This document shows positions 35,919 to 64,000 of a stretch of DNA of 64,000 nucleotides, piece after piece; position 1 is the first letter of the stretch; each line of letters opens with the position of its first letter. Origin of the DNA: Amyelois transitella. Its lineage: Eukaryota; Arthropoda; Insecta; Lepidoptera; Pyralidae. The notes below the pieces were generated by a model. It saw only the letters and a program-made list of their open reading frames with translations, ran no database searches and was not told the DNA's origin. A program made the translations under genes and the position numbers. The stretch covers positions 7,043,501 through 7,107,500 of the forward strand of contig NC_083523.1 of the NCBI RefSeq assembly GCF_032362555.1, given 5' to 3'.

Positions 35919-38900
35919 ATGAGGCCGTCAATGTACCTGATCGCCGTGTGCGCAGCCCTAGTCGCGGTGAACGCTGCGCCGGCGCCGGAGCCGAACCCAG
36001 ACCCGCAACCCAGCCCGGTGGCCAACCCACAGCCCGGCCAGGACGACAGGCCAGAAATCATTGAAATAATCGCCCCAGCTGCAAGTGCACAGGTGAGCAT
36101 CCTTAGGGACATCCAAACGAGTATTTTATCTGTGCCCTGGAAGCTCAACGTATATAAAATCACACCTCTTTCTTGGAAGGCTAGACAGAGACTTCATATC
36201 CTTTTACCTTCTTAGTTTTAGACCTTTTAGTTTATACTTTAACTTAATTCCCAAATGAGGCATTGTTCATTTCCTTCTGCACAGTTTATAAAAATCAATC
36301 ATGGTCTCTTCCTTAATCTGACTAACAACTATATCTGAATATCCATTTCTTCAATGAGCCATCAAGTAACATGCGGTTTCTAGTCTTATGACTCTTAGCT
36401 CCATGTTAAAGGATAATGACGAAATATTGTACCCTCTTACCACTTCACTGAGGACGACACGGATTTGCCTTTGACCATGGTTTTGAAGTAGAAGAGCCAT
36501 ATTACTTAAGTAATATAATGTTCTAATTGAAATGTTAGCACCCCCGATCTCTTAAGAGAGCTCGGTCTACAAACACTATTTCGGTTTCAAACGTGACTGT
36601 TTTGGTCTCACGGTCCTGTCGTCAGGCCAAACCAATCACTATTGGCTAGCAACTTTGTATAACACGTCATCAATGCGCATGAGTGAATAAAAAGGACGCG
36701 CACTTAACGTTGACCTTAGCCTATGAAATTTGTTGGTCCTTCTGTCCTGATTTATGGTCGATTGTCTTACACACGCTAAAAATCTTTTATACTTATCAAT
36801 AATATTGTACAGTAATATAATTTGTATAATCATTAAATATTAAAATATAGAAGTCGTATACTTATATGTAAAACTCTTTCGTGGAGCCCCTATATCAATG
36901 AAATCAGCCGTAAGATGTATTTATCGTTACATTCACTTCGCCGAATGCAAAAATTTTTACCCACCGCCACTAAAATTTTACTTGTACAATCACTTCTCTT
37001 TCCTCTTCTTGATTATTCCGATGTGGCTTGTCTTAACGTTACTGAAGAGTTGCTTGACAAATTAGAGCGTTTACAGAACCAGGGCATTCGCTTTGTTTTC
37101 GGTCTTCGCAAATTCGATCATGTTTCTGAGTTTCGTCGCCAATTGAATTGGCTCCCCATTCGCCTTAGACGTAATGTTCACACACTATCTCTCTTGTTTA
37201 ATATCCTTTTTAATCCTTCATTTCCTCACTATCTTCATAAAAATTTCTCGTTCCGTGAGACGGATAGTCGCATGCGATCTCATAATAATCTTAAACTACT
37301 TATTCCTCCTTATTCTTCTCGGACTTATGGCTTGTCTTTTAGTGTTCGTTCTGCTCAGCTTTGGAATAACCTCCCCCAAGATAGGAGATCTGCTCTGAAC
37401 CTTAGTTCTTTTAAATCACTTATCAAGAGACTGTATTCTGATGCATCTGACAATTGAGTGTACTTATAAATATGTAAGTTTATAAATATATATGTATATT
37501 ATTTATGTATGTTTATCTTTAATTAGATATGTAGAAATGTATTGTTTACTTGCTTTTTATGTGCGCTGCCTTTTAATTATGGATTTTCCTTTATATTTTG
37601 GTTGACTGGAAGAAATCCCATTGGGGATAAGTCCGCCATTGTACATATTCTGCTAAATCCAATAACTGTTTTGTAATTTGTTTTATTTATTTTTATGTGC
37701 AATAAAGAGTCTACAAACAAACAAACAAACTTGACTAACCGTGACTCTTATCACAAACGAGTTCCAAACTCATCTCCGAAGAATTGGTGAGGACGTAACG
37801 GGGGCTAACGCCAGGAGGAGGATAAATGTGGCACGCGCACAAAAGCGTGGCACGCGCGACGCCGTTTTTATCGCGCGGTTATCACTGTCCCGTTTCACGT
37901 CATAATAAAAAGGAAACAGCGTTAGTTTCCCCCGCCCGCAGATCATCGAGATTTATCATTACATGATCGCAGCATACTAAAAAGTAGATAGATACAATTA
38001 AGTAACATAATGTAGATTTTTTAAACGTATCTTAACATATCATCAAGAATAAATATCCTAATATATTTAGCTTGACACCATTGCGTGAGTAATAAAATGA
38101 CGATCCATTAATGAATTAATTGCTTTGAGTAATTACCCGTATCTATGGGAATTTGGTTAATTCATGTACATAACATCGATCATAATCACATTAAATGATA
38201 ATTCCTCTTGAAACCTAAAACATACATACATATAACGTATATATTCTTAGCCGGGTAGACAGAGACAGTAGTCGCTAGTCACAATTAAAATTTATAATTA
38301 AACATCTGGGTCTTAAGATGTCTCAGGTCGAATTTGGAAATCTTTACAATGTTGTATGCAATTTGCATAGTTCAAACAAACATTATGAAAATTTACAACT
38401 ACAGCTAGCTCAGTGAAAATACAAAAGCAGCGGAATTCTGTAGGTTAAGAATCAGGGCCAAAGGTCACCACTGCCTTTTCAGGTATCGGAAAAGGTCATT
38501 GAAAATAAATTTAAGAAATATCCGATTGCATGAAGTTTTAATTGAAGATTAAATTGATGTTGGTTATGGGCTTCGGCAGAGTGAAATGAGGTCAATAGGG
38601 TCAGTGGAAAAACAAAGCGGACTCAGGGTTCTGAAACAAGCTGAGGATCTAATTGGAGAGTGTCATAAAGAGGAAGATAAAGTTTCAGTTTTCTGTGATC
38701 TTTTGCTTTTATACCTAAGAGTATCGACTTAATTATAAATAAATTGTTTACACACATCAGGGGCGTTGATAGGACAATTTTCTCTCTAAATCTTCATAAT
38801 TGTTTCCATTCATAGTCAAATATTTTTCTATTTTTCTGCTCCATCTAAACATTCCTTTTAAATTTCCAGGAAACGCTAGCAACATTGAACCTGGGTGCTC

Positions 38901-50791: not shown

Positions 50792-51655
50792 ATGTCGGAT
50801 GTAAAAATAGTAGCAGCCAGTATAGTAAATTTTCTGAAAAAACAGCTTGAAGGCGACACTTTGAGTTTGGATTCTAGGGAGAGCGTTGAGGTTGGCGTGC
50901 AGTGTATAGAAACCGCATTCGAGCTTAGTGCCGAAGATACGGCTCGAGGTGTCGATTTATTGCAGTTAGTGAAACAACAACGAGGTGCAGGCCCTACACC
51001 AGACTGTGCCGAGGCGGAGAAATTGAAAAATGAAGGCAACGAACTGATGAAGGCAGAACGGCATCGTGAGGCGCTCGAAAAGTATACTCGTGCCATCGAA
51101 CTAGATCCTCGAAATCCTGTTTACTTCTGCAACCGCGCGGCTGCTCATTTCAAGCTCGAGGAACACGAAGCCGCAGTTGCTGACTGCACCGCTGCCTTAG
51201 CATTACAGCCCGATTACAGCAAAGCACACGGTCGTTTAGGCCTGGCCTTGACTGCATTAGACAGGCACAGAGAGGCTCGGGCGGCTTACGCACGCGCCGC
51301 TCAACTGGAACCGGAGAATGAATCATACAAACAGAATCTTCGTTTTGCTGATGAGTGCCTAGCACAACGCGGGGAACGTGGGCCGCTAGACTTAGGAGGG
51401 CTGCTACAAAACCCTGCTTTACTGAATATGGCCACAGAAATGTTAGCCGACCCTAATATGCAAAATCTTATATCTGGATTAATGACTAATACACAAGCCA
51501 CCGGTCCAGCAGGCCCTGGAGGTATGAATGCTTTATTAGAAGCTGGTCAGGCTCTAGCTCAGCACATGCAAGCTGCAAATCCAGACTTAGTGGAGCAACT
51601 GCGTAGACAAGTCCGTCCGCCGGGTGGGCCAGGCGGCAACCCTCCTTCACAGTGA
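50792..51655 (+). CDS. Sgt: Small glutamine-rich TPR-containing protein (SGT/SGTA)
   Basis: An intronless gene of 287 aa. I chose ATG 50,792 (MSDVKIVAASIVNFLKKQLE); the frame is open upstream but has no earlier ATG. Residues 1-65 match the SGTA dimerisation domain, which binds the ubiquitin-like partners of the tail-anchored protein (GET/BAG6) route. Three TPRs span about 73-185. The carboxylate-clamp residues for Hsp70/Hsp90 C-termini are in place: K79, N83, N114, K144 and R148. Residues 204-231 (LLQNPALLNMATEMLADPNM...) are the Asn/Met-rich segment. The tail 238-287 is Gly/Pro/Gln-rich and binds hydrophobic clients in the family. Length is normal, if slightly short. It ends convergent with the EHD gene. 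Confidence 0.93.
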   Translation: MSDVKIVAASIVNFLKKQLEGDTLSLDSRESVEVGVQCIETAFELSAEDTARGVDLLQLVKQQRGAGPTPDCAEAEKLKNEGNELMKAERHREALEKYTRAIELDPRNPVYFCNRAAAHFKLEEHEAAVADCTAALALQPDYSKAHGRLGLALTALDRHREARAAYARAAQLEPENESYKQNLRFADECLAQRGERGPLDLGGLLQNPALLNMATEMLADPNMQNLISGLMTNTQATGPAGPGGMNALLEAGQALAQHMQAANPDLVEQLRRQVRPPGGPGGNPPSQ

Positions 51656-52501: not shown

Positions 52502-55500
52502 GAAATTACTTTAATTTAATTGGATACTTGAATAATATACAGAATATATACAGAAAAGATTATTGTGTTCGATTCCAACTGTAATTGGCGACATCTATTG
52601 GCGCATGATTTACATAACTTCTTCTATCAGGCATATCTTTATCTTCTCTATTTCATACAAGTTCATCGTAAAGAGAATATATGCCTTGTCGAATCTGTTG
52701 AGTAACCCTTTATCATCACTATCCTCCTGGCCCTTATCTGGTTGTGTCCTGAGAGGTTCCTGGGATCAGCCCACGCAACTCGCAATCAACTTTTTATAAG
52801 CAAATAATTGGAAGGCAATCAGGAAAAAATAATTAGTAAAACACTGCATCTTAACTATTTATTACACTATGTATAATTTATTATATTAATCAATACATTT
52901 ACATATCTTTATGTACACACAATAGCAAAATGTAACTCCAGTATCGATGAATAACTGTAGCACATAGATGGCAAAATATATATTTTTTTAAACAGAAGAT
53001 GCAAAGTAAAATATATAGAAATATCAACTTGTTCGCCATCTTTGAGCTACATTCGTAAAACAGGACGCCAAAAATCTATCAAAAACGAGTACATATACAT
53101 ACATATAAAAGTCTGTATTTACATACCTCGTTCCCTGTTAAAGTTAATTATTTCACTTGTAAACAAATATGCGCACTAGGTGTTCAAACCCGTCATATAT
53201 AAAAGTTGTACAAAAGCTATCTGCGTTTTACAATAGTGTCCTGCCATATAAAAGTCGTATAAAAGCTATTTTATACTGCAAGCAAGGCACTGAACAACTA
53301 TTAATATTAAACCACTTATCAATTTAAAGATAATAAAAAAATTATGTGCACTTTAAAAATGTACTAAACATTTGTTGAGTGATTTTTATATAAGTACCAA
53401 AATAGTAGTTATTTTCAATGTGTTAGTAGAAGAAAAACAATTTGGATCTCTAATAGGAACAACTGATAGCCATAACGATCAGTTTGGGTATACAATTTTT
53501 AATGATTAACATAAGTTTAAATAATATATTTAAATCGTATTATTTCTTTTTTAAATTTCGAACAATAATACTTCTATAAATAATGCATATATAAAAATGC
53601 ACCAAATAAAACTTGCCAAATAAATATCTTATGAATTAAAATTAAAAAGAAAATAAATTTCACTTTTCATTCTAACAAACAAATAGGTATATTTTTTTCG
53701 AATGTTAAATTATTTGCACCTAAATTTGAATGTGATTGAAAATGATTTTCATTACTAGTTCTAGGGAATTTATCACTATTTTGTTATGGTATGTGTGACT
53801 ACATATACCATCATAACTAAATTTTCTTTCTTAATTTATGAAATAATTAGGCCAAAAATAACTTTACGTTAAATATCCAATAAAAATAACCAGCATTTAT
53901 AAAATATGTGATAATTTAAGTTACCTATAGGGCTTGTGTATGTAATATGAATTATATTTTATTTAATTAAATGTATAAGGTGATGATACTAGCGCTATTG
54001 TTTAGCGTTGCACTTATTTTGCATCACGTCGCATATTAATAACGCTAATAACTTTAGAGAGTCTAGTACGGTGTTAAGTCCTCATTAAAAAAAAACTTTG
54101 AAATTGATGGATGGAGCCTGCAGTCAAACAATACGGTCTCACAAAAAATATATACTAATGAATAGTAAAATTAGTTTTCACAAATGTGAATTCAGAATAA
54201 GTATTGATGGTTATGCCCGCTCAGACAATGCCCCTACCACACAAAATAAATATGTATGAGAAACTTAGCATTCATAACAAATCTTCATCTCTTAGTAGTT
54301 TACTTTCGAATCGTTTTACCGTACGATTTTAAAATTGAAGTTTCAACAAATTAGGCTGATAACTCTTATCGTTTTTAAATTTTATCGATTTGGATCGGTA
54401 TTATACTCCCAGAATAATTACAACATGACTTATGTTGAATATCATGGGTGTATAACTTTTTTAGGATTCGAGCGATAATAAAATGTTTTATAAAAAATTA
54501 ACAGTGCGAATCAATGAATTAGCAAAAAAATTAAATTTCAAATGTAATTATTTACATCGATGTGAATAAATCAAGTATAGACTTACAAAAAAATAATATA
54601 CTCATGTACCAAACATTTCTGCCTACAGTACAATAAACCGAAATTTTTACTAAACCTTCTTTTTACGTAACTTTTAATACTTAATTTCGACAACAATTGT
54701 TTTTGTACAAACATATTTAATCTTGTTTTAGAAGCCTTTTACAATTTAAAATCGTGGTGAGGACTAAAGTTAACACTGTTTTGTAGACGGATGTATACAA
54801 AATACAAACACCGCCATACCAAGATTATACAAAAACAAGGATTCATAAGTATACTACAAATATAATTATGGCTACTTTGAATGATTCTAAAAAAAAACAA
54901 TTTAGCTAGCTATTCACCACAGATAAAACTAGGTAGTGAAACCTAGTAACTAAATTAACTAATGAAACAAAAAAAAGATGTAATATATAATTCGCTCAAA
55001 GAATTTACTGTATCGACTGAATCATAAGATAATAGCAAATATTAAATGCGAATAAATGTGAAGTCCTACAACACAATACAAATCTGTAGCCACAAATTAT
55101 TATGCCAAAATATTCATTAATGATACGCGAACATCCTCAAAGCTGATAATTACGTACTTAAGCGACTTAAGATCTTAGAGCGACGTATTTTAATATTAGA
55201 ATATGAGATAGTTGCAATTTGTTATCGCTCATTAGAAGGCCAGTTCCATGCATCTGTTTTCAGCCTTCTAGCGATTATAAACTATAGTACAGCTATCTCT
55301 TTACAAGTGTAATAAAATCAACTTAGTATTAAAAATTCTGTGAAAAAATCAGATTACTTATACAAATAAAATTTAATTTCTTATGAACTTGCGTTAAGAT
55401 GCACGGTGATATCGCAGTTTTAATATTCAAACTAATTTCTGCTCAATATATTTATTGAATAGATCTTAAATTGCACTCTTTAGTAGCCCCAACTCTGCAT

Positions 55501-56193
55501 TCAAACAAGGGGTTATTATGAATAATTATAAAAATTAATTAAATATAAATTAATTATGAATAAATACTTGAAGTAATCAAAGGTTCTGAACAAACGGTGA
55601 TAGTTATTGCAAAGAATGTCCAGCGAATATATTTATAATCATAGGTATAATTGATCTAAAACCCCTTTAACGAAACCTCAATGTTAAATTAAACGTTACC
55701 CAATGAATCAGTGAGTATAACGTCTAGCTTCGACTCGATCTGACCTAGTAATTATTGCAATGTTATGTAACATTTTTAGATCATCTATATATAATTGCTG
55801 TTTCGAATTATCTATTCATTGCACTCAATAATTGAAAAGAAATCGAGCAGATTTAAAAGTAAAACAGCTATTACATAATTCAAAAGAAGTTTTAGTTGCT
55901 ACGCTTATGTTTTTAAACGTAATACCAAAATGTACTGATTGTTTTTTTTTAAATATGCAGTTATTTAAAAAATATTAAATTTATATACCTAATATAGCTT
56001 TAAAACAATATTCGGAAATCTGTGCATGATAAAGTTGATGAGTGTAAGAATTGCAAAATTGACCCCTTAAAATGTTGTAATATCTTGCTTATTAACTTCA
56101 CAAACACGCGCCCGCTTTTTTTTTTAAACAGTTCAATATTCCAAAAAATACGCCGCTCCAGAGCCTAGCTAAATAGATTTAAGTATTAACAAT
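52502..56193 (-). other. Likely long 3' UTR of the EHD gene
   Basis: This AT-rich stretch has no gene. The first strong poly(A)-like signal approaching Sgt is AATAAA on the minus strand (52,858-52,863), which would give a 3' UTR of about 3.3 kb. Nearer signals, such as 55,449, are possible. No repeats of families A or B occur in it, in contrast to the flanking introns, which fits transcribed and constrained sequence. Confidence 0.35.
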
Positions 56194-56396
56194 TCAGTTC
56201 CTTTTGCTCGGTGGCACGAGATGGGCCGGAAGTTCCGATGGTAAGTCGTGTCCATCTATCTTCACCCTGATGAGATGCATGGCCAGCGCGAACTCCTCCT
56301 CGTCCAAGAACCCATCACTGTCAATGTCGGATAACTTCCAAATCTTGCCGAGAACAGAGTTAGGCAGTTTCGATTTCACCATTTCGGTCTTGGCAG
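56194..56396 (-). CDS. Past1: EHD-family ATPase, last exon (EH domain)
   Basis: The terminal exon begins after AAATTCAACAG and completes the codon from the previous exon (GCT G / CT GCC). It encodes the core of the C-terminal EH domain: LPNSVLGKIWKLSDIDSDGF then LDEEEFALAMHLI, with an EF-hand loop DIDSDGFLDEEE. The exon ends in LPAHLVPPSKRN and a TGA. EHD proteins (EHD1/RME-1; Past1 in Drosophila) are dynamin-like ATPases that remodel endosomal membranes. Their EH domain binds Asn-Pro-Phe motifs. The dynamin-type G domain and the start of the gene are beyond the right end of this window. Confidence 0.93.
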
Positions 56397-57189
56397 CTGT
56401 TGAATTTAATGATTATATGTAAAAAAATAAATATAATACTCAACTTTTGGTAAAAAAAGTAGGTACATTACAACACAAATGCTTTGACATAAACTAAATA
56501 AATTAATAAAAAATACACTGATGACATGAGCGTTTTCTCCTCCACACGAATTTTTTAAATTTAAAATTTACGAATAACGTATTTAAAATTAAAAAGCAAA
56601 AGTTGAGTTTCATTTACAAAGTACCTACTCGTAAGAACGACAAAATATATAACGCCCCTAATAATTGCTATGACGTCATTACCATAACCTAATGGTTAGT
56701 ACCAGGATGAATTTAACTACTAGGTAGTTTGGTCAAGGAATGTTAGTGTTTATGATATTTACTTATAACAATTTATGTAAATACCTATTGGTATGCAAGA
56801 TATAATTAGTAATGAGGTAGTTTCACTTGCGTCTTAGCAGGTGCACGATGAAGGAAATATATTGAATAGTTGATTATTTAACGTCATTCGATGTTAGTCA
56901 TTTAAGTAAAAAATATAATAATTTAGATAATTAAGTGAAGAATTGATGTATTTTTCTTGTAAACATAAAATTAAAATCTATTCTACAAAGTAATCATTTT
57001 CAATATAACATTCGAGTGCAATCACTGGGGCCTGACTAGAATAATAAAATGCTTCAAAAGCTGATTCAAAATTAAATTATTATCACTTAAATGTATAGCA
57101 CCATATAATAGATCAAAGATATAAAAAATTCCGAATAGAAAATCAACAAGGTTAAAGTAATATTTGCGACAACGAAAACCTCTTATATT

Positions 57190-57987
57190 CTATGTACTCG
57201 ATTGAAAATAATCAGTATTATTACCGTTTAAAGTATGAATAAAGCTTTTTAAAATGCTTACTAAATGGGGCCCATGTAAAAGCTTAAATATCGAATTAAT
57301 CCTAATAGTTTCTTCCTCGGGACCAAACGCTACAACTTTTGCCCTATCTAACCAAGTATCGGGAGTTTTTTCAACAGTAAGCTCAATAAAAGTATTGCCT
57401 GTTATGATATAAGCCATAGTCATAAATAATACTTCAACCGTAATCAACAATGTAACTATATTCAGAGTAACAAGAAAAATAAACTTTATTGTGAAAAATA
57501 TCGGTTGAAAAAACCCATATTCATTTTCATTTATTAACTCATCATTTAAATTAAATGGTCTTCTAATCTCATCAACATCAGAATCTGAATCGTGATTTAC
57601 TCCAGAATTGATTTCAGATCTTCTAGAATTTGGTCTGCTATCAATTGCACTAATGTCTTCTAAAGCCACGGATTCATTTACGCTATGAATAGATATATCA
57701 GATGACATCCTCCTACCACCTACACGAGCATCGCGTTCGCTAATCAAAAGCTGTGTTATCATACTAGAGTTATGAGCGGCCAATGTCAAGGCATCAGCTA
57801 TTTTGTTGAACCTATCATCTGTTCCTTCCTCGTCTTTTAGTTTCAAGCAAAGTTCCGTTAACATCGAACAATTTTGTGTGGAAGAGAGCAACGCTTCGAG
57901 TGTCCTATCAACCGTTAATATGCTACGAAAATTTGGTGTTCCTAACAGTTGTGTTAATGTGCGTATATCAGAACGGGTGAGTTGCAT
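57190..57987 (-). CDS. 265-codon ORF in the last EHD intron: alternative tail or nested gene
   Basis: An open frame with no stop follows directly on the upstream EHD exon: its codons GGA GCT continue as GGT ATG in the intron. Read-through would append it to EHD after residues ...GKVTGAG in place of the EH domain. Features by residue of the 265: helical N-terminus 1-95 with two similar motifs (NCSMLTEL near 39, NSSMITQL near 73); Ser/Asp-rich acidic linker 95-150; hydrophobic segment about 157-195 (FFTIKFIFLVTLNIVTLLIT... plus VEVLFMTMAYII), long enough for one or two membrane passes; then a 65-residue tail. In AT-rich DNA a 265-codon gap between stops is very unlikely by chance, so it is or was coding. 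I recognise no domain. Confidence 0.6.
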   Translation of the reverse strand: MQLTRSDIRTLTQLLGTPNFRSILTVDRTLEALLSSTQNCSMLTELCLKLKDEEGTDDRFNKIADALTLAAHNSSMITQLLISERDARVGGRRMSSDISIHSVNESVALEDISAIDSRPNSRRSEINSGVNHDSDSDVDEIRRPFNLNDELINENEYGFFQPIFFTIKFIFLVTLNIVTLLITVEVLFMTMAYIITGNTFIELTVEKTPDTWLDRAKVVAFGPEEETIRINSIFKLLHGPHLVSILKSFIHTLNGNNTDYFQSST

Positions 57988-57989
57988 AC

Positions 57990-58160
57990 CAGCTCCTGTG
58001 ACTTTGCCATCGATGGGATTGAGTGACCTGAAGATTTCGTCATACTTCGGTTTCTCTTTACTGCATATCCATTCAGGGTCTCCGTGGCCAGCGTCGACGC
58101 CCTCGCCTCTTCCGTAGCCGAAGGGTGAAACTTGATCTTCTACACCTTCGAACGCTCCTC
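57990..58160 (-). CDS. Past1: EHD-family ATPase, penultimate exon
   Basis: The exon lies between acceptor AAAATTCCAG and donor GTATGC, phase 1 in and phase 1 out. It encodes the linker and start of the EH domain: GGAFEGVEDQVSPFGYGRGE, GDPEWICSKEKPKYDEIF and RSLNPIDGKVTGA. These match the known C-terminal region of EHD proteins, and the frame joins the last exon exactly. The intron between the two exons is 1,593 bp and contains the 265-codon frame. Confidence 0.9.
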
Positions 58161-61100
58161 CTGGAATTTTGTTTATGTTTGATTAAATATTGCATTGTTT
58201 ATATTACCGGACTGCAAGGTTGCGTTATTATGAAAGTGGGGCAAAAGTTTTTGCACATGTATTGTCCTTGTTTCTTTTGCAATAATTTCCAGTAAAACAA
58301 GTAATGATTAAATACGATGGACATTCAAAATAATTCGACAAATCAAATTTTCAGCTTAAGTACCATATAAACCAAGCCTTAATTTTAATTAAGCTATAAA
58401 AAATTCATAGAAACATTGTTTCATAATTTGTGCCTGACAGACTTATCGCTATTGATGAAATTTTTCACAAGACAACAAATTTCAATTTCAACAAGACCAT
58501 GGCATTTGACGAACAATGATAAATGATTTCAAAGCCAGCGCCCGTATTATTGCCATCGAAGGTCTGTTTGTATCAATAATTAATTTTCAACTACTGAACG
58601 TGGCGGAAATGTAAACCATACATCTGAATTCCCGCGGTCATAACTGACTAATCCATACTGTCGAAATATTATATAATTACTTCAGGATATTACAATTTTG
58701 TAATGTTATAAAAAATTAAGTGCTCTTTCAAAACACAGTATCATTTCAATGAGTAATCACGAATTTATTCTCTAAACTGTCTCATAGTCGTAATGGTAAC
58801 TATACTTAATTGATCATAAGAAACACTAAAAACATACATGTATATATGTTTAAAATTTAAAACATATCAACAATTTCACAAAATTGCTTGAGTTCATTCA
58901 TTTTAAACAATCATTTTATGATTTGGCCAATTATCTTGTTCACTATCATAATCATTTCTAACATCAGCAGACATTTAGCGTATTGTGCAATTGTAATTTT
59001 AATTTATTTATGGCCACAAAATTATATACTGGAGCATTTAATACAGTAATTGTAGCACAAAGGTGTTACTTATTTCAATAGAAATCTCTTCCAGTAGACC
59101 TATGAGACAACTTAGAAAAATAAACCTTTTTTTAGAAATCCTAATTATGTAATGGCCACAGAGTAATTTATCTTCGGAATTTAATTCAAAAATACCGAAA
59201 TGATTTACAGTTTCACACGTCTAAATTCACAGGTTAAATTCTCATGTCTGTATACCGTACAATGGTTTCAATTAGGTCAAACACATGTGTCAACAGTTTC
59301 TAGATTGTTTACATATAGATGTTGTTATAATACCTTACGGAATGATCAATCAACGACATCTGTAACTGTGTAATTCTCTGCCATATAATCGTCTTACTTG
59401 TATGTAATTTCATCAGCATTGATGAGAATACTTCTCGTAATATTTTTAAAACTATAAACGATAGTCAATCGGTATATAAATTTAATAAACAGAAGAAGAG
59501 TGCAACCTTGCAACTCCATCGACCTTTTTATCAGAAATGCAAATGGCTCCAGTTTTAATGTTGTCGTTAAAAATTGCTACATACTTATAACATTCTTTTT
59601 AACATTGTAATTTTTTTTAAATTTCGGCTCCTCAGGACTTCTTCCGATTTTTACATTATATGATTGACTAGCTCGTTCCCGCGACTTCATCCTCACGAAT
59701 ACAACCACAAAAGAAAAAATAAATGCTTAGTTACCTATATTGTCTCAACAAGGCCGGCTGTTAATTTTGATATCGATCTGTTGCTGCAGATATTTTTTTA
59801 TAATCACACTTCATGATTGAACGAGCGCTTGTTTTTCTTCCGTTTTACTTATTCAAATCGTCAATTGCTAGACAATTGAACGAATAACTTGTAATTTCAA
59901 TGACAACATTGAGTATAAGAAGGTCACTGAATCTTGTAATAAGGGGTACGTTTTTAAAATTTGTTTTAACTGTTTCATATGGAGCCGGGATGATAACGAA
60001 GGAACTACAGAGATAGGTCCTATTTTTTGAAACCATAGCTAAAATTACTTAATGCCGATGAATGTAGTATCAACAAATATCTTAACTGATTCAGTTCAAA
60101 TGTGCAACATAAAATCTTTATAAACACAAATTGGCCTCGACCCACTCTTCACAATATCATCTGATAGTGATAGAAGATAAGGTGCGTCGAAAACTGAGCT
60201 TGAAAATTAGTGTAACAAATAAATCTGGTAGCCACTCTCAGTTCGTAAGATCGACTATGACTAGGCTTGGTGAGAGAGATTATAATATTTATCCAACAGC
60301 TCAGCAAGGCTTAAAACCGCTCCAAGAATTCGCATATCGGTAGCACAAGATTCGGACGTCTCGAGAGAGGCAACACAAGAATGGCAATAAATCAGGATGG
60401 TGTTAAGAATTTTTATTTACAAAACAATCAAAATAAGGAGGTTCAGGACAGATTAGGGTCCGTTAGTGATAGCATGGCTATGCGAGGAACGTGTGTCGTC
60501 AAGGACTAGATCATAAGGGTTCTTCCTAACTGCGTTTTGGGTGTGTTATCAGTATTAGTATCGACCAAATTCTCTAAATTGGACCTATTTATTTAACAAA
60601 ATACCATTCGTATCCTGCTGATATTACTAAGTCGACGTGACCCTGTTTATTGGTTAGTGGATTTGTTTACATTCAATATATCTGCATGTGACTAATGATT
60701 AGAAGCAAGTGTATTAATTGGGATATCTTTACGCAATAAATATTCCTAACCGGTAAACATCTCGATTCGAAGATTTTGTCTGGATTGTGATAGCGTTTGT
60801 GTTTGTTTGTTTGTAACTCTATATTGCACTTACAAAAAGACATAATATAATACTCAATATAGTGAATTTTTATTGGGTAAAAACCTTAGTAGCTAACCTT
60901 TAAAATTTCACGTATTCTTCATCACATACGTAAACCTGAGTAAGTTTATAAAGGAAGATCATATTCGAACAAATGGATGTGATTTAGGACAGACTATTTA
61001 GACAATAAGTTCTTCCCTGTTCTAAAATTATACCAATCGATGCATGCGCATTTAGCGCATGCTCACTTAGGATCACCTTACCTGGTTTGTATTGTATAAG

Positions 61101-61735: not shown

Positions 61736-64000
61736 TAAATAATATCTCCAGGATAATAATATGAGATTTGTCCGGCCACCTATTATGAAGACCATAACTA
61801 TATATATTGAAAGATGATACACTATCATTGGAGTGAATAACTCCAGAGATCCTGCTAAAGAGCTTAATATTCTAAACGATAACGACACGTCTAAAGCTTT
61901 TTCACTTATAGAACGCAAAACCGCTAACCAATAGTCGCAAATTATTAATCAAAATGACATCGCCGATATCCCAAACGATCATCACACAAAACGTGTAAGT
62001 GATAGCACGATTGTATAAAAATAAAACGCACGCAACAGTGCAGTGAAAGTAGTAGGTGGTAGGAAGTGGGTGGTACACGACGTCATAATAACACAGATAA
62101 CAATTACAATACGACTACATGCACCAGTCCTATTCCTATACTGCATAATTCAACAGTTTGTTACAATTCCACTTACAACAACAGAAGTTGTTTAAAAAGT
62201 ATTTAATATAATCAAACTCCTTTGACGTGTTAATGTTAAAGTTGAGATTGAAATAAGAGTCATACAATCTATAGCTATTAATAATGAAGTTATCAGGGCG
62301 TAAGATAAATTTTAGTGAATCCACAATTTTCGTTTTCCAATTTATTATTGTAAAACATAACCTTGTCTTTCCGTGATAAATGTATATGACTTAAATGTTA
62401 ATAACTACACCTACTAATATGATACGATGAATTTATTTATCGCTGAAACGTGCTGGATCCAATTTCATTTTGTAAGTTGTAGTCGAGATAAATATACGAG
62501 TATATTCCAGGCATTAAATTCACAATATATGATGCGATTGATAATATTATCACCCTCTTTTTTCAACTTCATAGAACATCTAAAAATTTATTGAGTTGTT
62601 TTACTCAAGTTACCTTAGATGTGTGTGGTATAGGTCATTTACCTTAGGTATATGACCTATATATTATTTGTTTTATAATTAATGATAATTAGGTCTATTT
62701 CGTAAGTATTGATAGTTGAAATGTGGTCAAAACATGAAAACATGCAGGCTGACAATGGCAATCAGTAGTATTGATGACTCCGTTAAAAAATCCCTGAATT
62801 CTTATAAAAAAATCATAAGATATGTTTGAAAACAGAAAAAATAGCTTTAACATTAGAATAGCCTTAGGGCAAATTATGACAGTCAAGTGGATCGACACAA
62901 GCAAGTTAAAACAAAGCGTTACATACGTTTATTATTATGTGACTTACAAGCCAGAAGATAAACAGGTGATTATAGTTTATTATTTTAGTTGAACAACAAT
63001 AATAATCGTACTTGATCTTAATGAAAATGTAATTGATAGACGGGCGGATCTCTAGAAAAACAATAACATCACATCATAAGCATAGCTGCAGCCATCCTTT
63101 TTATGACCTCGAAAACCATAGTGGAAAGTCTGCATCCTACGGCGCAGTCTTAGTCATTTGTATAATTAAAATCTACAAATGGATTCGATGCACTCAGCTT
63201 GCTTTGATAATCATTCAGTCAAAATATAAAATTGGCATGGAATCTAAAATCCAGGACAATAACGGCGGAATTTCAAGGTCAAGATTTCTTTCACTCTCCA
63301 TAGAGGATTCACGTGACTTGATGGCAATAACAACCCAAGCTTACGACACACAACCCATAAGCTAAAGAATGGAAGGAAGATTGCACATTTATTACACTAC
63401 ATATAACCGAAAAACATTACCGGCTAGTAGTCCGTTCGTGTAATAAGCCTGAGTGTGGTGGGCATTCATTCCTTCTGCAAAAAAAAAAACAAAGGCAAAG
63501 AAATGTTACGCTAGAAAGTTAAACAAACGCGCTTAGCTATCTAACAATATGTTTAGTTTGTGTATAATTAACTTGCGATGATGTGTTAATCTGGTAAAAT
63601 CCTTGCATAGTGTAGTATTATCGATAGACCCATTCATTATTCGGGAAGATGAAATGCAATCTTCGGTTAACATAATTAGCATTGCTTCGGACGTAAGAAT
63701 GGAGAATGACCTTATAAATAATCAATTCAATCATCATATATTTCATACGTAAAAGAAGAAAAAAAATTGTCTTTTAGACATACTCAATTCTGGAACAAAT
63801 TACTTTTCTATCACAAAGAACCAGAAGAGGATTATACTGCCATTTAGTGCAGTATAATATCGTCAAAGGTAAACTGACTGGACTGAATTGCAACTGTCAC
63901 TAGAGAAATATATGATGCAGCAAAATCGTTAGTCCCAATAAAAGGTGCCCCACCGGACAACGCTCAAGGTCGGTCTCTGGTCAGATGCAGGATACCTGTA
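61736..64000. other. EHD intron or upstream region to window end
   Basis: No exon is recognised. A 10-bp hairpin (ATTATACTGC/GCAGTATAAT) lies at 63,831-63,858. The 110-codon plus-strand frame at 63,033-63,365 has no recognisable domain. The last 100 bases are GC-richer, but their nature cannot be judged at the edge. Confidence 0.4.

Follow-up and report, generated by a model that had tools for sequence, protein, structure and literature searches.

The window analysed here, a 64,000-nucleotide stretch of the Amyelois transitella genome, carries on its minus strand exons of a gene of the EHD family. The main exon of this gene lies outside the window, on the minus strand at L003:7506-8730 (C19:7,124,506-7,125,730), and the next candidate exon follows about 17.5 kb downstream. 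In the PDB the main exon aligns to EHD4 over residues 17-404 with an E value of 6.2e-193; EHD2 chains were also matched. The family PF18150 (labelled DUF5600), which we take to be the EHD helical family, was found above its cut-off at one place in the genome, inside this exon (three first-look candidates were scored). The dynamin-type ATPase and helical domains of an EHD protein are thus both present.

The penultimate exon (57990..58160, minus strand) encodes the linker with the PFG motif and the first part of the EH domain; PDB chains of EHD1, EHD4 and EHD2 are matched by residues 1-56 of the translated exon, with a best E value of 2.4e-14. Checking of the exon joins showed that it is entered and left in phase 1. 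The last exon (56194..56396, minus strand) completes the EH domain and carries the canonical stop; its best match to an EHD1 EH domain has an E value of 4e-31. The two exons join in frame, so that the host gene has a C-terminal EH domain; the canonical protein has 532 residues, its frame is unbroken over the joined exons and it ends at TGA 56,196-56,194. The first AATAAA past this stop is at 55,456. Splice signals and phase also predict an optional in-frame cassette exon of 54 nt (63421..63474, minus strand), whose acceptor is strong (7.23) and whose donor is fair (2.68). Its phase fits between the main exon and exon 58160-57990, and it would add 18 codons in the EHD linker.

Several other open frames were seen nearby and elsewhere in the genome. 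A single open frame on the plus strand at 50792-51652, some 4.5 kb away from the last exon of EHD, encodes an SGT/SGTA-type co-chaperone with TPR repeats and an SGTA dimer domain. A LINE-type reverse transcriptase frame, open over 921 codons (L004:2506-5271, plus strand), is found upstream of the main EHD exon and is preceded by a 277-codon frame (L004:1153-1986, plus strand) which gave no Pfam match and may be the first ORF of the element. A 206-codon plus-strand frame at 36837-37457 resembles by eye the end of a LINE reverse transcriptase and gave no Pfam match at E values up to 0.1. A mariner-type transposase frame of 354 codons, with a Transposase_1 match, is found at L008:5191-6255 (plus strand); it shares sequence with a second mariner-type frame, of 232 codons in the frame listing, at L020:9104-9802 (plus strand).

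The sequence-only reading had claimed that the frame of the penultimate EHD exon continues without a stop through the splice donor and for 265 further codons, to position 57,190. Both the ORF listing and the sequence itself confirmed this: exon and extension belong to one stop-to-stop ORF of 330 codons (57190-58182, minus strand). The donor of the last EHD intron, GTATGC (57984..57989, minus strand), stands in the context GCTG/GTATGC, with the GT from 57989, and is read in the frame GCT G/GT ATG, so that an ATG at 57987 lies within the donor and in frame with the extension. It is the only donor scoring above 3 within 56101-58200 on an approximate matrix, and the EHD frame suggests that it is functional. 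The extension (57190..57987, minus strand), delimited by sequence reading together with ORF and coding tests, has 265 residues counted from ATG 57987-57985 and stops at TAG 57192-57190.

In a composite terminal exon, reading continues into the following intron and terminates there, which gives the protein a new C-terminus. At this locus the frame of the penultimate exon is open over the donor and reaches a stop inside the intron. A signal scan of the remainder of the last EHD intron (56397..57189, minus strand) found no AATAAA between the extension stop and the last exon; the poly(A)-like words there are one ATTAAA, at 56410, and weaker variants. AATAAA words do occur at 57535 and 57490, both within the extension, whose frame would be truncated if they were used.

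Exon and extension together form the longest stop-free run of the window; the 265 codons of the extension by themselves rank behind the SGT frame (301 codons). The stop density measured on the minus strand was 6.6-7.1% per triplet, near the rate of about 6% assumed earlier. From this density, the probability of a 265-codon gap was calculated as 9e-9 to 8e-8 per start. The chance of 1e-7 to 1e-8 proposed from the sequence alone ignored the number of places looked at: over the six frames of the whole window 8e-5 to 6e-4 such gaps are expected, and in a genome of the same size 0.4 to 3. In Markov-3 simulations of 64 kb (n=60), the longest run had a mean of 136 codons and a maximum of 175. The length of the extension is far beyond chance within the window; given the genome-wide expectation, length alone would not be decisive for someone scanning genomes. 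Runs of at least 265 codons were also counted in a 230-kb sample of the same genome, made of 23 loci (L002-L004 and L006-L025) and excluding L001 and L005, which bear the frame. Eight were found, three without a Pfam family and five recognisable, the latter being EHD itself, two reverse transcriptases, a transposase and one Baculo_FP_2nd match.

The three-base periodicity of the extension was G = 44.3, a value reached by none of 1000 stop-free null runs (mean 11.2, maximum 38.3). Among 159 local pieces, which overlap and a few of which include the last EHD exon, the maximum was 30.8; in the 230-kb sample, 11 of 805 pieces of 795 nt, coding pieces included, equalled the extension. By segment, the first 80 codons showed weak periodicity (6.6) and the remainder strong periodicity (26.8 and 30.0). 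Stops were frequent in the two sister frames over the extension (30/264 and 38/264), with 55 and 1 of 1000 null runs, respectively, as high. Under a model of amino-acid and third-base composition, exon and extension scored positive or close to zero, and scores in the intron beyond them ranged between -15.7 and -40.2. The full extension scored 33.1 bits under the same model, a value matched by 0/400 intron-trained and 9/400 composition-matched nulls. For the first 80 codons the corresponding counts were 0/400 and 24/400; for the first 40 codons they were 20/400 and 143/400, a neutral signal.

Codon usage in the extension was unlike that of EHD and SGT (training set of 752 codons): 235 of 1000 null runs did as well, and reverse-strand frames outscored the extension under this model when stops were ignored. 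As coding evidence, codon usage is neutral to adverse. The G+C content at third positions was 0.28 in the extension and 0.41 in the main EHD exon. Given how long and how periodic the extension is, the surplus of stops in one sister frame and the failure to find a match to a repeat or transposon, we consider, with good confidence, that it probably codes for protein.

Four parts can be told apart in the translated extension: an N-part that contains an internal repeat, then an acidic linker, a hydrophobic stretch and a tail. Residues 1-90 are mixed-polar, and residues from about 91 to 155 are rich in S, D, N, E and R. Self-comparison showed that a 26-residue unit occurs twice in similar form, at residues 27-52 and 61-86 (57730..57909, minus strand). 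The two copies align without gaps at a score of 42, which 4 of 1000 shuffles of residues 1-110 attained; both NxSM(L/I)T(E/Q)L motifs noticed earlier are present and lie inside this repeat. The N-part might conceivably resemble armadillo-type helices. The long hydrophobic segment, which the sequence-only reading had also pointed out, was found by a Kyte-Doolittle scan at about residues 160-196 (57400..57510, minus strand; about 37 residues): 19-residue windows scoring above 1.6 start at residues 160-178. It is followed by 69 residues. Hydropathy suggests a possible membrane anchor, and the run, which is long for one helix, could form a hairpin.

Four explanations of the extension were weighed. 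A transposon, viral or retrocopied gene landed in the last EHD intron would account for a single intact frame in an intron and for its A+T-rich third positions. Against this, the extension was found once in the genome (327,366,114 bases in 33 contigs were searched), with no second match at E values up to 10 for the one first-look candidate scored, and the 2.1 kb around it were likewise found once. Searched against Pfam, the 265-residue extension matched nothing at E values up to 10, and the 330-residue frame gave a single match, to Thioredoxin_3 (E 0.27, 11.7 bits against a cut-off of 24.8), at residues 255-294 of the frame, inside the extension; it was taken as chance. PHROGs held no family for the extension at E values up to 1. 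PDB matches of the extension, all with E values of 1.1 or worse, were also taken as chance, and residues 1-96 gave no PDB match at E values up to 10. Three scans of viral contigs and one of prokaryote contigs, each with six short peptide patterns that suit close relatives only, found no relative of the extension, and a bacterial origin was rejected on the prokaryote scan within that same range. A match to a transposon protein, named in advance as a refutation of the earlier proposal, was not seen in the Pfam search. A pair of short direct repeats flanking exon and frame was judged to be chance because it would enclose the EHD exon too; scans for bacterial-type promoters and terminators were set aside as uninformative for an insect gene. 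With no copies and no convincing matches within the reach of these searches, we judge a transposon, virus or retrocopy origin unlikely, and the least probable of the four. Alternatively, the extension may be a chance or decaying open frame with no product. Such a frame would fit the lack of relatives in the searched collections (viruses and prokaryotes, Pfam, PHROGs, PDB), the neutral codon usage, the number of such runs that a genome this large should contain by chance and the equally periodic pieces of the 230-kb sample. Since the searched contigs were those of viruses and prokaryotes, missing relatives say little on conservation among insects, and the combination of length, periodicity, sister-frame stops and internal repeat, together with the recognisable majority of equally long runs, makes a frame without a product improbable.

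The two remaining explanations both take the extension as coding. It could belong to a separate gene that lies on the same strand within the last EHD intron and encodes a lineage-specific small membrane protein. Such a nested gene would be intronless, or longer and with the extension as its final exon, and would start at ATG 57987 or have an upstream exon spliced in. The layout of the translation looks like that of a complete small membrane protein, which speaks for a nested gene and against an EHD isoform, and composition and codon usage differ from those of EHD. Weak acceptor-like sites lie in the frame, e.g. at 57941 (-2.67) and 57719 (-0.57), with scores similar to those of two EHD acceptors (-2.43 and -2.20), and a TATA-like word of weak consensus is found at 58203. 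Genes within introns are common, about 6% of Drosophila genes according to the available part of PMC3786989. The low third-base G+C, the un-EHD-like codon usage, the weak early periodicity and the null-level score of the first 40 codons also count against an isoform, and long coding composite exons are, in our judgement, rare. A nested gene, however, needs coincidences: it would have to start at the donor or be open up to it, and share its frame with EHD. A frame open right up to the donor is required for an isoform and is a coincidence for a nested gene; for a later start, at residue 42, the calculated probability of the frame being open to the donor by chance is about 0.02. If transcription began upstream of the exon, four out-of-frame ATGs in the EHD exon would precede ATG 57987. 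The missing AATAAA makes a nested gene, and likewise intronic polyadenylation, slightly less likely, but does not count against retention of the whole intron. A nested gene is accordingly a reading that we hold possible but doubtful.

The reading that we favour over a nested gene, on the basis of frame and position, is that the extension codes for protein and serves EHD as a composite terminal exon, through retention of the last intron; we place it a little short of an even chance. A retained last intron leaves no exon junction 3' of the stop, a point that matters under the rules of mRNA decay. The isoform is the likelier of the two coding readings because the last intron can be retained without a change of frame or a downstream exon junction, and because no good start belonging to the extension itself was seen. 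The earlier proposal of an EHD isoform with a hydrophobic anchor and no EH domain is supported in part: the frame is probably coding, and the isoform itself is possible, somewhat more so than a nested gene.

In the composite terminal exon, the last intron would be retained up to the normal poly(A) site, or the transcript would end at an intronic one; with whole-intron retention the last EHD exon would turn into 3' UTR. Translation would continue past EHD residue 466 into 265 further residues, ending at 57,190. The conceptual product is in frame throughout its 731 aa and is without the C-terminal EH domain, the last 67 residues of the canonical EHD being missing. It would retain the ATPase and helical domains and the linker, and shed most of the EH domain and hence NPF binding. 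The hydrophobic segment gained, of about 37 residues, could hold an EHD-type ATPase stably in the membrane, and the choice of partners may shift from the EH domain to the new N-part. We tentatively propose, with less assurance than for the composite exon as such, an integral-membrane EHD ATPase made by last-intron retention, in which the EH domain would be exchanged for a new helical partner domain and a hydrophobic segment of hairpin length, possibly in a tissue-specific manner. If this isoform is real, it would uncouple the engine of remodelling from targeting, and the role of each could be studied in the animal. If instead the extension belongs to a nested gene, it would encode a small, unclassified membrane protein, and the frame for that protein would overlap the host gene's splice donor.

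EHD proteins are peripheral membrane ATPases which choose their partners through the EH domain. With an EHD4-like main exon, followed in order by the linker and EH exons, the host gene is a full member of the family that includes EHD1-4, Drosophila Past1 and C. elegans RME-1. Binding of the EH domain to NPF motifs of partners is described in the available part of an EHD review (PMC13282721), which also gives two transcripts for Past1 and five splice isoforms for RME-1. Past1 is reported, in an excerpt of PMC5218476, to make two proteins that differ by seven N-terminal residues. The difference between these described Past1 isoforms is N-terminal, whereas the EHD-tail product would differ by a C-terminal membrane-type tail. 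The term 'EH domain' was not found in the text of PMC6281616, and the parts of the literature on insect EHD proteins, nested genes and terminal exons that were accessible to us contain no EHD protein with such a tail, although one may be in print.

Composite terminal exons arising by last-intron retention or intronic polyadenylation are of a known kind, according to the part of PMC5928244 available. As in these, the EHD exon reads into its intron and acquires a new C-terminus. The tail here is long, with 265 aa, and would exchange a ligand-binding domain for a hydrophobic segment, and no AATAAA follows the extension stop within the EHD intron. A likeness also exists with 2mit, which is nested in timeless2 (PMC3786989, in part): in both cases a coding unit lies within an intron of a host gene. 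However, 2mit is antisense to its host timeless2, whereas the extension shares both the strand and the frame of the host exon.
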